This document shows, one piece after another, positions 14,671 through 60,442 of a DNA stretch of 64,000 nucleotides (positions are counted from its first letter, which is position 1; every line of letters starts with the position of its first letter). The position numbers and the translations under genes were made by a program. The DNA lies in the IMG/VR virus record IMGVR_UViG_3300045836_000088, positions 1 through 64,000 of that record; one strand, written 5' to 3'. The notes under the pieces are model-generated. The model worked only from the letters and a program-made list of their open reading frames with translations, had not been told where the DNA came from and made no database searches. The stretch comes from a virus.

Positions 14671-15570
14671 CTAAGACTGTACTTGATCCATGTAGCCTTT
14701 TACGAGATATATCCTTCTTATGTCATGCTTGGCAACAGTAAAAGAATCGTATTGTCTTCTCCCGCTTGGCGCGGTAGCAGTGTTATCAGAGTCGGCAATG
14801 ATTGTATCTTCAGAATCGCCTTTTAATAACCGCTTGATTGTGCTGTACCCATCAAACTCAATCCAGTACACCTCCCCATAAGAAATATATTTTGCTGTAA
14901 CTTTTTTAAGAAATACCACACCTCCGGGTCTGTATATCGGCAACATCGATTCTCCTCTTACAACCCTCCCAAATTCGCAGTCTGAAAATTGAGGTGCAAA
15001 CACGTGGTACTTCGGTGAAACTTCTGGCTCATCATTATATACTTCCACTGCACTTCCCATAACTGGCAATTCATAAACAGGTGTCATTTTCTGCCCTGTT
15101 GATAAAGTGGGTGTCATGTTTACTACAATACCCATGCGCTCTGATTCATGAGTATCATGCGCCTTACTGGATGTTAATTCAATTCCCTTGATATCTATAC
15201 CAAAGTTTTCTTTGATTAGCGATAAAACGTCAGTCCCAATATCAGTCTTAGTGTACAGTGCTTGCAATGCTTCGACAGTTATATTTAATTCTTTTGCCGC
15301 CTGCTCATCAGATATACCTTTATCCTTTAATGCTTTTTTTAATTGACGGCCGGTTACTACAGTTTGTTTTGAAAACTGCTTGCTTTGAGCCGGTTTTACA
15401 TCTGTCAACGATATGTTGAGTTCAGTTTCTAGTCGCCTAACAAAATTAGGGTCAGGATGAGCACTTTTAATGTAATTATAAAAAGTAACTCGTGTTATCC
15501 CCAATCTCCCCGCAACTTCTGTAACTGTTTTCTTTTGTCTTTTAATCTCGCTTAAGACTGTTTGTTCCAT
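14671..15570 (-). CDS. CI/LexA-like repressor with S24 domain (299 aa)
   Basis: Two helix-turn-helix-like segments: residues about 15-35 (TEVAGRLGITRVTFYNYIKS) and about 76-105 (QLKKALKDKGISDEQAAKEL). The S24-type C-terminal region (about 165-295) contains GESM with candidate Ser208 and STIKRL with candidate Lys246. A usual Ala-Gly cleavage dipeptide is not obvious. Divergent from the cro-side operon; likely binds the repeated TATTGACAAAT sites at 15.6 and 54.8 kb to maintain lysogeny and respond to DNA damage. Confidence 0.85.
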   Translation of the reverse strand: MEQTVLSEIKRQKKTVTEVAGRLGITRVTFYNYIKSAHPDPNFVRRLETELNISLTDVKPAQSKQFSKQTVVTGRQLKKALKDKGISDEQAAKELNITVEALQALYTKTDIGTDVLSLIKENFGIDIKGIELTSSKAHDTHESERMGIVVNMTPTLSTGQKMTPVYELPVMGSAVEVYNDEPEVSPKYHVFAPQFSDCEFGRVVRGESMLPIYRPGGVVFLKKVTAKYISYGEVYWIEFDGYSTIKRLLKGDSEDTIIADSDNTATAPSGRRQYDSFTVAKHDIRRIYLVKGYMDQVQS

Positions 15571-15594: not shown

Positions 15595-15664
15595 TTTACA
15601 AGTGTATTGACAAATGTAAAAACATGTGTATATTTGTGAAGTAATATTGACAAATATAAATAAC
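15595..15664 (+). promoter_or_regulatory. Cro-side early promoter with repressor-operator repeats
   Basis: Contains TTGAC (15608-15612), 17 nt, then TATATTTG (15630-15637), a Bacteroidota-type promoter. TATTGACAAATGTAAA (15605-15620) recurs with one change at 15645-15660 and may be paired operator sites. A 34-nt stretch (15604-15637) recurs exactly at 54767-54800. It sits between the divergent repressor and first plus-strand gene. Confidence 0.75.
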
Positions 15665-15682
15665 TATTAAACATTGCACAAC

Positions 15683-35632: not shown

Positions 35633-38071
35633 TTAAGCTGCTTGTTGTTCTTGTGGTGGCGGCTGTTGCTGTTGTTGTTCAGCCTGTAATTGTGCTTGTT
35701 GCTGTGCTTGTGCCTCTGCTGCTTCTTGGTCTTGCATTTCATGAATGGCATTGACCATTATTTGTTTTTGGGTTTGGTCTACTATTCCTAACCCGTCCCA
35801 AACAAATTGCGGTATGTCTTTCCATGTTTTAGTAGGGTCATTCAATATGCCCTCAATGATCTTAGCTTTGGCAATACCTACAAATTTCAGAATTTCAATT
35901 TCCTTACTATTTTCAAGCTGTGCGGCCATTTCTTTAGCCTTATTATCAGCCTTTAACTGCTCCAGTTGCATTTCACCATCTGATTTGGCTTTGGCTGCTG
36001 CAATAGCTGACTGAGTATTGTCTATTGAATTTTGTCTTGCTTGTTGCTCTAATTCCTTTTTGCGCCTGTTAATACGTGCTGCAAGCATGTACGAAGCATA
36101 CACCACATCTATTTCAGCTAATCGCCTTACATCAATAGCATCGTTTAGCTGGATTTCGTTTTGAGATAATGCTTGTGCGATATTCTGCTCTAAAAACTGT
36201 TGCTCGCTATCATCATTAACTACCTTTATCAGCACATCGAAGTTTGTCTTTTCAAAGTCGTCAGTAGCATTGATTTTAATATATTCAATATTGTTTGCTC
36301 CTAACGCTCTACGGTAGCCATCGTAAGAGTTTGTTTTACCAAATACCAGTATATCCCAACCTCTTAGTTGAACTAATTTAGCGGCTCTCTGCTTAATATT
36401 GATGTAAGAGTTGTAAATGTAATTTGACGCACTTTCGCCCATTTTTTGTGCATCATGTAGCACTTGTGCGCCCGTTCCTTGATTCCTGATTTCTCCTGCG
36501 TCAAGGCTATTGCTGCCGATAATACGATAGAGTGTGTCCCATCCCTGATTCCATTTCGCCATCAACTGTTCCAGCTTACCGGAAAATGGTACATTGTTAG
36601 CGGTAATAGGTTCCCTGCGCTGACCTTTTCCGTCATCCTCTAAACGCTTATAAAAGCCGATACCTGTTTGCTTTTTAATCTTATACAGGTCATAAGGGGA
36701 TAATGTACCTTCTCCTAAACCTATATCTACATCCGACATAGTAGAAATATCCACATCATAACCATCCGGCATAGCAGCTGCAATTATTTTCTGCTGTTGC
36801 AGGTCAATAAGCTGCATCATCTTAATGGTAGGTATCATAGTTTCAATCAATGGCGTATTTACCATTTGATTGTTACCATACATATAGACAGCGTATGATG
36901 AATAGATTTCCTGCAAGTTCTGTGAGGGCTTAATCATATTTTTAGATAAGCCCCATTCTAAAACATATTCAGTCTCAGCGATCATAACGCCCGTGTACTG
37001 AACGTAATATGGATTGCTTTGCAGGGTCTTTTCAGGGTCAGTAACGCGGGATATACGGTCTAACGTTTCCTTACCGAACCTATCTTGCCCTACTTTGTAT
37101 TTCAGGTTATAAAGCGTTTTAAAGTCCAATTCAATAACTTCAACGCGCCAGCTATCGTATGGCCTTGCTAATGCTGTAGTATAGGCGGCATCCCATCCAT
37201 AACTAAAGTCAGCAGGATTACCAAACTTACCTTTAGCATTTTGCGCCAATTCAAATAGCTTTTCTTCGCTTACTTTTCCCGGATATTTGAGGCGTATATC
37301 GGCAATAGACATATAGAATGCTTCGCCTATCCATTGCCAGTCCCTAAAGTCATTCCATTCTGTATAAGAAGTAATTAGATTTTCAGGCTTGATAAAGCGA
37401 ATTTTAATACGCCCTGTAGCGTCGATAAATACTTTTACACCTGCATATCCACAATTAATAAGATCGTCCATTAGGCGGTCTTTAATTACACCGTCAAAGT
37501 CATTTTCATACATGACAAGCGTAATTAACTCCTGCATCATTATTTCTTCTTCTTCCTTGTAGTTATAGCCAAACTCTACGTTAACTTCTTCCTCACTTTG
37601 CGGGTCGTTATCACTAAAATTCTCAATAGGAACACCAGATTGTTGCTGCAATTGCATAATTCGCAATTTCTCGCGCAATTTGAACAAGGCATTATCTTTA
37701 GCCTTTTTCTTTTTATCTGTGACGTATGGGTCTATTGAGTTACAGGATATTTTCTCTATCCGTTGGTTATACCGATCTTTTAGCCTGTTTAAAAAAGGAA
37801 TAGCTATAGGAAGTGGTGAGTAGTCAAGATTCACTACAGATAATTCCCCGTCAAGGTCAAGGCGGTCTTTATATTCATCCATAGGCTGTTTACCCATAGC
37901 GAAAGCCCTGTTATAGTCAAATCTCGCCTTACGTCCTGAACGTGTTTCGCCATTATACCCTGTATTCCACTTGTTGTATGCCCCGGTCATAAGTTTAAGA
38001 CCAAATGAAGGCAAGTCCTTTTGATCGTCCGGCAATAGAGGGTTTGGCATTGTTGATGTACCTGTGAGCAT
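35633..38071 (-). CDS. Portal protein (812 aa)
   Basis: Directly downstream of terminase, with the length and pattern of podovirus/crAss-like portals. A charged N-terminal wing region contains FDYNRAFAMGKQPMDEYKD. Further segments are DGVIKDRLMDDLINCGYAGVKVFID and GTGAQVLHDAQKMGESASNYIYNSY near 540-560. The C-terminal barrel-like coiled coil ends in a poly-Gln/Ala tail. It forms the dodecameric DNA channel. An internal ATG at 38050 (MPNPLLPDD) is an alternative start. Confidence 0.8.
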   Translation of the reverse strand: MLTGTSTMPNPLLPDDQKDLPSFGLKLMTGAYNKWNTGYNGETRSGRKARFDYNRAFAMGKQPMDEYKDRLDLDGELSVVNLDYSPLPIAIPFLNRLKDRYNQRIEKISCNSIDPYVTDKKKKAKDNALFKLREKLRIMQLQQQSGVPIENFSDNDPQSEEEVNVEFGYNYKEEEEIMMQELITLVMYENDFDGVIKDRLMDDLINCGYAGVKVFIDATGRIKIRFIKPENLITSYTEWNDFRDWQWIGEAFYMSIADIRLKYPGKVSEEKLFELAQNAKGKFGNPADFSYGWDAAYTTALARPYDSWRVEVIELDFKTLYNLKYKVGQDRFGKETLDRISRVTDPEKTLQSNPYYVQYTGVMIAETEYVLEWGLSKNMIKPSQNLQEIYSSYAVYMYGNNQMVNTPLIETMIPTIKMMQLIDLQQQKIIAAAMPDGYDVDISTMSDVDIGLGEGTLSPYDLYKIKKQTGIGFYKRLEDDGKGQRREPITANNVPFSGKLEQLMAKWNQGWDTLYRIIGSNSLDAGEIRNQGTGAQVLHDAQKMGESASNYIYNSYINIKQRAAKLVQLRGWDILVFGKTNSYDGYRRALGANNIEYIKINATDDFEKTNFDVLIKVVNDDSEQQFLEQNIAQALSQNEIQLNDAIDVRRLAEIDVVYASYMLAARINRRKKELEQQARQNSIDNTQSAIAAAKAKSDGEMQLEQLKADNKAKEMAAQLENSKEIEILKFVGIAKAKIIEGILNDPTKTWKDIPQFVWDGLGIVDQTQKQIMVNAIHEMQDQEAAEAQAQQQAQLQAEQQQQQPPPQEQQAA

Positions 38072-54605: not shown

Positions 54606-54757
54606 TTTTTATTGCCTAAATTTTAGACAAGTCTATTTTATAGAAAATCACCTATTCTATTTAGTTATATACCCAGACTAAATAAGTCTATTCCTATTAG
54701 ATAATCAGCATCCCATATTACTTATAGTTATACCTAACTACATCCCGCCAATCTCAT

Positions 54758-54827
54758 TTTACAAACGTATTGACAAATGTAAAAACATGTGTATATTTGT
54801 TGTGTTGTCTTTACAACTGTAAATAAC
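54758..54827 (+). promoter_or_regulatory. Early operon promoter/operator, copy of the 15.6 kb site
   Basis: Contains TTGAC (54771-54775 side) and TATATTTG (54793-54800). 34 nt (54767-54800) are identical to 15604-15637, and the flanks are partly conserved for about 70 nt. The early operon should therefore respond to the same repressor as the cro-side operon. Confidence 0.7.
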
Positions 54828-55111
54828 AACACCGCTCATTGCTGGTATTGAGCCATAGACCAGAGGCGAGAGATTGAACGCCAAATTTCAATCCGGTTAC
54901 TGTGTCCGATAAACACCTTAAAAAACGAGTGCAGTCTCGGAGGATAACTAAAAGCTGCCGTGAACCTTAAATAGAGTAGTAACGAAACAATCCGGTAAAG
55001 CCTGAAACAAAGCAACGGTAAAAATTAATAGCTAATGTGGCCTATTAATATAATAGACTGTTGCCAGCCAGTAAAGAAACACAGAGCAGCTATTTTAATT
55101 AACTGTCAATA
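54828..55111 (+). ncRNA. Structured 5' leader RNA of early operon
   Basis: About 285 nt between promoter and first gene, without an open frame of note. Predicted stems: GCTCA/TGAGC (54834-54853), GTGT/ACAC (54902-54916), CGAG/CTCG (54926-54939), TTAATAG/CTATTAA (55025-55048). There is also a pseudoknot candidate at 54865-54893. CAATCCGGT occurs twice (54889, 54988). At the 15.6 kb copy the promoter is followed after only a few bases by the same ACTATTAAACA leader end, so this looks like an inserted regulatory element. Confidence 0.55.
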
Positions 55112-55126
55112 AAACTATTAAACACT

Positions 55127-55342
55127 ATGAACTCACCCATATTAACAGTTAGCCAAATAGAAGAAAGAGCGATAACAACCGATATTAAGGCAGATGAATT
55201 TAAAGAAAACCTTTGGTTTTACCTCTGCTATAATAAGAAAGCAGTTAAAAGCCTTGCCAAAGAATTAAACGTATACCCAACATTAGGTAATGTCAATCAA
55301 GGTCTTTTAGATTATTTCTTCGCTCATGTTGGCATGAATTGA
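55127..55342 (+). CDS. Early operon protein (71 aa)
   Basis: First gene after the structured leader, so likely made very early. Small helical protein (MNSPILTVSQIEERAITTDI) with an LCYNKKAVKSLAKELNVY segment that could resemble an HTH helix pair but is not conclusive. Unknown function. Confidence 0.6.
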   Translation: MNSPILTVSQIEERAITTDIKADEFKENLWFYLCYNKKAVKSLAKELNVYPTLGNVNQGLLDYFFAHVGMN

Positions 55343-56731: not shown

Positions 56732-57268
56732 ATGAAAACCTTAACTATTATGGAAACCGCAAAAGTTTATGTAGGAACCTACGCAAAGTATACAAACGGC
56801 TCAATTGCCGGAGAATGGTTAGACCTTTCTGACTATTCAAGCAAAGAAGAATTTCTTGAAGCTTGCGCGGAATTGCACAGCGATGAAGAAGACCCTGAAT
56901 TTATGTTTCAGGACTTTGAAAATATACCTGATGGTTTAATCTGTGAAAGCTGGATAAGTGAGGGCTTTTTTACCTATCAGGAAGTATTAAACGAAATAGA
57001 TAACCCTGAAGCGTTTAAAGTGTTTATTAATCACATGGGTTATGATTTAGCAAAAGAAGACGCTGAAGACCTTAAAGATAGCTTTGAAGATGCTTATTGT
57101 GGCGAATACAATAGCGAATTGGATTATGCCTATGAAATAGCGGACGAAATGATGCCAAGTGACGCGCCTGACTTCTTAACCAGATACTTTGATTACGAAG
57201 CGTTTTGCAGGGACTTGTTTATTAGTGACAATTGGTATGAAGGCGGTTTTGTCTTCCGTAATATTTAA
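56732..57268 (+). CDS. ardA: Antirestriction protein ArdA (178 aa)
   Basis: Starts at ATG 56732. The N-terminal VYVGTYAKYTNGSIAGEWLDL (20 or fewer here shown in parts: VYVGTYAKYTNGS, GEWLDLSDY) and DEEDPEFMFQDFE match ArdA, which mimics B-form DNA with surface acidic residues and blocks type I restriction-modification enzymes. The protein is strongly acidic throughout and of normal length. In the early operon, consistent with protecting incoming DNA. Confidence 0.88.
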   Translation: MKTLTIMETAKVYVGTYAKYTNGSIAGEWLDLSDYSSKEEFLEACAELHSDEEDPEFMFQDFENIPDGLICESWISEGFFTYQEVLNEIDNPEAFKVFINHMGYDLAKEDAEDLKDSFEDAYCGEYNSELDYAYEIADEMMPSDAPDFLTRYFDYEAFCRDLFISDNWYEGGFVFRNI

Positions 57269-60325: not shown

Positions 60326-60401
60326 TAATGGTTTATATCACCTTAAAATAGCTAGTACAACAATTCAGTATAAATAATATACTTCAATATATACTACTTA
60401 G

Positions 60402-60424
60402 GCCGTTAATAACAATTTAACGGC
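60402..60424 (+). terminator. Terminator after RHH-like gene
   Basis: GCCGTT (60402-60407) and AACGGC (60419-60424), followed by TTTTTT. The next gene starts 18 nt later. Confidence 0.8.
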
Positions 60425-60442
60425 TTTTTTATTTTTATAACT

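Follow-up and report, generated by a model that had tools for sequence, protein, structure and literature searches.

Why one of two nearly identical promoters of a phage genome should carry, ahead of its first gene, a long noncoding segment missing from the other copy is the question raised by this locus. The DNA analyzed (hereafter the window) is a stretch of 64,000 nt, part of the 72,594-bp virus record IMGVR_UViG_3300045836_000088. It encodes an integrase, an S24-type CI-like repressor (14671-15570, minus strand) and a portal-and-terminase module showing distant likeness to those of Flavobacterium and Cellulophaga phages (about 26% for the terminase), and contains TANNTTTG promoters. From this set of features, the virus is most likely a tailed, temperate phage infecting a member of the Bacteroidota.

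The two promoter copies and the inserted leader

The 33-bp promoter TATTGACAAATGTAAAAACATGTGTATATTTGT is found in exactly two copies (chance 0.00), the one listed in Table 1 and another at 15605-15637. The copies align without gaps as far as TAAATAAC (54820-54827), with 84% identity over 70 nt. The sequence ACTATTAAACA occurs only at 15663 and 55114, in each case directly ahead of the first gene. At the 54.8-kb copy only, promoter flank and ACTATTAAACA are separated by a noncoding insert of about 285 nt (54828-55112), in which no plus-strand ORF of at least 40 aa is found. A sequence-only reading of the locus had described the shared flank, the match resuming at ACTATTAAACA, and the extra 285 nt, devoid of open frames, at one copy alone, and was right on all these points. 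The 15.6-kb copy is divergent from the repressor gene and heads three short genes, without the RNA. A second TTGACAAATATAAATAAC half-site lies 3' of this promoter (15595-15670) and is degenerate at the 54.8-kb copy; at the 15.6-kb promoter, the half-sites likely serve the S24-type repressor as tandem operators.

Table 1. Features of the 54.8-kb promoter, its leader and the operon downstream
Feature	Position	Strand	Description	Basis
Promoter, Bacteroidota-type	54768-54800	+	TTGAC ... TATATTTG, with likely repressor operator	exact 33-bp duplicate
5' hairpin of transcript	54802-54832	+	GTGTTGT-C-TTTAC-AACT-GTAAA-TA-ACAACAC, 7+5 bp	leader MFE; no comparative support
H-type pseudoknot 1	54834-54863	+	GCTCA/TGAGC with CTGGT/ACCAG	shuffle test
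H-type pseudoknot 2	54865-54893	+	GGCG/CGCC with GATTGAA/TTCAATC	shuffle test
Core hairpin A	54926-54939	+	CGAG-TGCAGT-CTCG	one pair altered on both sides vs. BS-TP3
Conserved core	54929-54961	+	GTGCAGTCTCGGAGG(A)TAACTAAAAGCTGCCGT	91% identity, 33 columns, to BS-TP3
Stem B	54956-55020	+	TGCCGT (54956-54961) with ACGGTA (55015-55020), closing a 53-nt loop	6/6 pairs kept in BS-TP3
Alternative 8-bp helix (putative)	55012-55064	+	GCAACGGU (55012-55019) / ACUGUUGC (55057-55064)	pair probability 0.97-0.998
Type-P1 twister ribozyme (predicted)	55023-55100	+		Rfam RF03160, MFE of isolated domain, descriptor scan
Twister P0/P1	55023-55032 with 55089-55100	+	2-nt bulge; P1 = UAGC/GCUA
Twister P2	55036-55039/55080-55083	+	UGUG/CACA
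Twister P3	55042-55046/55052-55056	+	CUAUU/AAUAG
Twister P4	55057-55059/55070-55072	+	ACU/AGU
Twister T1 pseudoknot	55062-55064/55086-55088	+	UGC/GCA, three Watson-Crick pairs, L4 with L1
Twister T2 pseudoknot	55040-55041/55067-55068	+	GC/GC kept, L2 with L4
Predicted scissile bond	U55033^A55034	+	UAA at site
First operon gene	55127-55342	+	71 aa, no known family
Strong intrinsic-terminator-like hairpin	60400-60426	+	between two same-strand operon genes	pattern match

The operon starting at the 54.8-kb promoter extends on one strand for 17.8 kb, to where the record stops at 72.6 kb, and its products include a D5-like regulator, an anti-restriction protein and an ERF annealing protein. The promoter itself is the single match to TTG-N17-24-TANNTTTG on the plus strand between 54.5 and 72.6 kb. 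Besides the hairpin listed in Table 1, strong terminator-like hairpins, all called by pattern matching, lie between same-strand operon genes at genome positions 64528-64547 and 67088-67113 (L091 1528-1547 and 4088-4113), and no consensus Bacteroidota promoter follows these internal hairpins. No N-like protein was recognized among the early proteins scanned. The anti-restriction gene (PHROG 2059, 56732-57268) resides early in this RNA-headed operon.

The insert as a whole does not stand out in folding energy (z -0.54), a measure that is by itself uninformative for this leader. The 9-mer CAATCCGGT, flagged earlier as a repeat, does occur twice (54889 and 54988), but about 0.15 such repeats are expected by arithmetic for 285 nt; being close to chance, the repeat was dropped as a functional pair. 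Since neither energy nor repeat is informative, the case for structure rests on the match to a twister ribozyme, the tandem pseudoknots and a core conserved in another phage. The several stems postulated in the sequence-only reading find their evidence in these three observations and not in folding energy, and the notion of a structured leader RNA heading an early operon holds. Matches to tRNA, tmRNA, introns, RNase P, 6S RNA or riboswitches were not found with ARAGORN and Rfam, and Rfam riboswitch models gave none up to E 10 in the 54700-55200 interval.

A predicted twister ribozyme at the 3' end of the insert

The insert is made up of two parts, as judged from its sequence, the 3' one being almost certainly a diverged type-P1 twister ribozyme, a known class. 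A permissive scan of 501 nt matched the Rfam twister-P1 family (RF03160, clan CL00120) at 55029-55092, with 38.7 bits and E 5.1e-7, the alignment taking in all 68 model positions. The score is under the curated gathering threshold (38.7 vs. 67.2 bits), which is a database cut-off and not a structural feature, and there is no gathering-level match. The claim that no named RNA family fits this leader thus stands for most of its length, but overlooked the 3' domain.

Stems, T1 and T2 contacts and conserved nucleotides of twisters were defined according to PMC5408937 and PMC6154101. The essential stems P1, P2 and P4 are all present, in type-P1 order, along with the optional P0 and P3, and the isolated domain has as its MFE fold exactly P1-P2-P3-P4. 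L4 reads G-U-UGC-C-A-GC-C, and GAGCA is found on the other side of L1. Twisters conserve the A 3' of the scissile bond and about ten nucleotides of L1 and L4; of these, UAA, GAG, and in L4 G-U, A, GC and C are seen here, while the A following the T1 strand is changed to C. The domain further departs from known members of the class in T1, where two pairs of the consensus CCC/GGG are altered on both sides, and in being fused, in a phage early leader, to an upstream RNA of no Rfam family. As the nested covariance model is blind to the pseudoknot and cannot score T1, its compensated pairs are evidence for a twister independent of the Rfam match. A descriptor combining P1, P2, P4, T1, UAA and L4 found this site alone in the window and in 1.2 Mb of related loci, and 0 sites in 30 shuffled windows; its T1 rule is general, yet the descriptor was written after the site had been seen. 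With a twister in this position, cleavage would probably separate the leader from the mRNA. A limited literature search returned no publications on a twister in the early leader of a phage.

The upstream RNA and its counterpart in phage BS-TP3

The part upstream of the twister matches no Rfam family, and is best described, from its sequence features, as a folded leader RNA. Pseudoknots 1 and 2 are in tandem, separated by a single A. Two non-overlapping pseudoknots of at least 10 bp were found in none of 2000 dinucleotide shuffles, one such pseudoknot in 83.

The 33-nt core, in the form GTGCAGTCYCGGAGG(A)TAACTRAAAGCTGCCGT, is also present in Bacteroides phage BS-TP3 (blastn, E 9e-3 over 2.3 Gb), which is unrelated to the window phage, and, according to an exact-pattern scan, in the near relative L004. 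Outside the core, sequence similarity between BS-TP3 and the window is not significant. The core was ruled out as a coding sequence, a one-base insertion shifting the frame between the two phages. In BS-TP3, hairpin A reads CGGG-TGCAGT-CCCG, and thus features a compensated pair relative to the window, and stem B retains 6/6 pairs, with two one-sided changes and a loop of 51 nt (53 in the window). In the three sequences aligned, which represent two lineages, hairpin A and stem B lose none of their 10 pairs; every cell is paired, and pairing falls to 29-48% when the partners are slid. With so few sequences, a shuffle control for this conservation is uninformative.

The likeness extends to the order of the upstream elements, BS-TP3 featuring a 9-bp pseudoknot, then an A, then a GGAG/CTCC hairpin, which sits at the place of pseudoknot 2 without a second stem. 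Core, hairpin A, stem B spacing and a pseudoknot followed by a GGNG hairpin are common to the RNAs of the window, of BS-TP3 and of IMGVR_UViG_3300010275_000470, and all are located close to where a rightward operon under repressor control begins. The BS-TP3 RNA differs in having an extra 5' stem and no twister 3' domain, and in being preceded by one small gene rather than by the promoter. It occupies the second position in a long rightward operon, within 380 nt of noncoding sequence, and a CI-like repressor is encoded divergently next to this operon. The BS-TP3 3' domain has no match among Rfam ribozymes, which means that a leader RNA of this kind is not in every case joined to a ribozyme. At the place of the twister, this domain (L003 4111-4210, of no Rfam family) has an 8-bp closing stem, TGCCCCGA/TCGGGGCA, and could be another ribozyme.

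Core patterns were searched in IMG/VR, where nothing was found beyond the window, BS-TP3 and L004, and in 84,980 species genomes, where only one coding coincidence was found; these exact patterns are strict, and more divergent copies could escape them. A covariance model of the core retrieved the same three sequences only, the other matches (E 0.03-0.9) looking like chance, and plasmids yielded nothing. Phages with relatives of the window helicase (about 57% identical) are without the RNA. Conservation of the stems in relatives, suggested earlier as a check, is therefore not seen in helicase-related phages, but is seen, with a compensated hairpin, in the unrelated BS-TP3. The RNA appears rare and patchy, as would be expected of a transferred module. 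Several candidates were rejected upon inspection: a match to the core in genome contig L005, inside a peptidase-like gene; occurrences of GGAGGTAAC-TAAAAG among the helicase relatives (L028-L042), which lie inside a coding gene and are not homologues; and a weak second BS-TP3 site at 37476, which has no core. The 94-aa neighbour gene of the RNA in BS-TP3 was also followed, and its relatives in L086, L088 and L089 are all without the RNA. In L028, L030-L032, L034, L041 and L042, a conserved short gene near 1.5-1.8 kb contains the chance GGAGGTAAC-TAAAAG that mimics the core.

Possible roles of the leader

The most likely reading of the insert is a cis-acting antitermination leader RNA trimmed by a twister, a mechanism to which, taken whole, we would give not quite an even chance. 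The first part, running for about 225 nt from the transcription start to U55033, with its tandem pseudoknots and BS-TP3-like core, would act in cis on RNA polymerase during transcription, causing processive antitermination and enabling the enzyme to pass the terminators of the 17.8-kb operon. The second part, from A55034 to 55100, comprises most of the twister, and would cut co-transcriptionally at the predicted bond, freeing the leader RNA, so that on the mRNA the first gene would be preceded by a short leader with a 5'-OH end. A single recognizable promoter, internal terminator-like hairpins and a short twin operon lacking the RNA are what antitermination by RNA would predict. Weighing against this reading are the Rfam score below the gathering threshold, the C in L4, a similarity to BS-TP3 that loses significance outside the core, a BS-TP3 3' domain unlike any Rfam ribozyme, and the failure to recognize an N-like protein or boxA/boxB. 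Antitermination, riboswitch-like control and a decoy RNA had all been proposed on first inspection; the first fits the context best, because one recognizable promoter heads 17.8 kb interspersed with terminator-like hairpins, and riboswitch-like control is retained as a rival on account of the 8-bp helix in Table 1, which might gate the twister. For a decoy, the evidence points neither way.

In phage lambda, an RNase III site lies between nutL and N. The order promoter, regulatory RNA, cleavage site and first gene is the same in the lambda PL leader and in the window, where the ribozyme would play the part of the RNase III site; unlike in lambda, boxA/boxB and N were not found, and hairpin A could be boxB-like. 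In HK022, the nascent put RNA, located just downstream of PL, is alone sufficient to make polymerase pass terminators (PMC9378689). As put, the window leader is a structured RNA placed just downstream of an early promoter heading a long operon in a temperate phage. Put is about 70 nt long, has two stem-loops, and is found at both early promoters (PMC9378689); the window leader is about 225 nt long, has another fold, is absent at the 15.6-kb promoter and belongs to a phage of a Bacteroidota host. Like the glmS ribozyme, the predicted twister would be a self-cleaving ribozyme in a bacterial 5' leader, and possibly a regulated one; the glmS fold is unrelated, and control of the window twister is conjecture only.

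Such control is what a natural aptazyme would imply. The core would sense a ligand, a protein or a host state, with stem B, once formed, letting the twister fold and cut; in the off state, ACGGTA and its neighbours would pair with twister P4/L4, so setting processing or stability of the early mRNA. This scheme appears rather unlikely. In its favour, the 8-bp helix is incompatible with stem B as well as with twister P4/L4/T1, and once both of its strands have been transcribed it prevails in the nested ensemble (P about 0.99); until then, before the twister is made, stem B is fully formed. The conserved core also looks like an aptamer. However, a comparable helix between these segments forms in 4.4% of shuffles, and pseudoknot energies, which would favour the twister, are uncounted in the model; for both reasons the predicted switch is a lead, not a finding. 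The helix moreover has no counterpart seen in BS-TP3, and neither a ligand candidate nor an Rfam riboswitch match is at hand. That the insert exemplifies a new class of phage regulatory RNA, in which an upstream sensor gates a twister through mutually exclusive stem B and P4-L4 pairing, seems a little less likely still. Were it so, a sensed cell state would decide cutting, and hence reading and translation of the long early operon.

About as improbable as the aptazyme is a trans-acting RNA, the twister forming the 3' end of a stable sRNA of ~225 nt, or of a decoy for host RNA-binding or defence proteins. A twister lying exactly after a folded domain would free a discrete RNA, and an anti-restriction gene is part of the same operon. 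Theta ribozymes of gut phages, HDV-like in fold, are similarly placed to process adjacent noncoding RNAs, their partners being tRNAs (PMC10879173). Yet both phages have the RNA close to the early promoter, where an element acting in cis would have to be, and no target site or partner was found. The twister match and the ordinary folding energy of the whole leader would also suit a ribozyme acting by itself, trimming the 5' UTR and altering mRNA stability or translation, with the upstream part as a spacer; the conservation in BS-TP3 of a core with a compensated hairpin, and tandem pseudoknots unmatched in shuffled sequences, make this more doubtful than either sensing or action in trans. A short DNA sequence conserved between unrelated phages could finally be a protein-binding site, and the core an operator, origin or att site, but the compensated change in hairpin A and the kept stem B speak for RNA, and the ribozyme resides in the same transcript, so that a DNA element is very improbable.

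Although sequence searches have turned up twister ribozymes by the thousands, little is settled about their biological roles. The place of the window twister, between a structured early leader RNA and the first gene of the longest operon of the phage, suggests one. If the twister indeed cuts as predicted, Bacteroidota phages would have a protein-free counterpart of the nutL/RNase III arrangement of lambda. The upstream RNA, which shares its core with that of an unrelated phage, is a candidate for an element of Bacteroidota in which antitermination is based on RNA.

Further along the sequence, from 63708 onward (L091 708-1523), short tandem repeats (GYGSGDG...) take up a long stretch of a gene; more than one frame is open there, and the gene is possibly phase-variable or repeat-driven.
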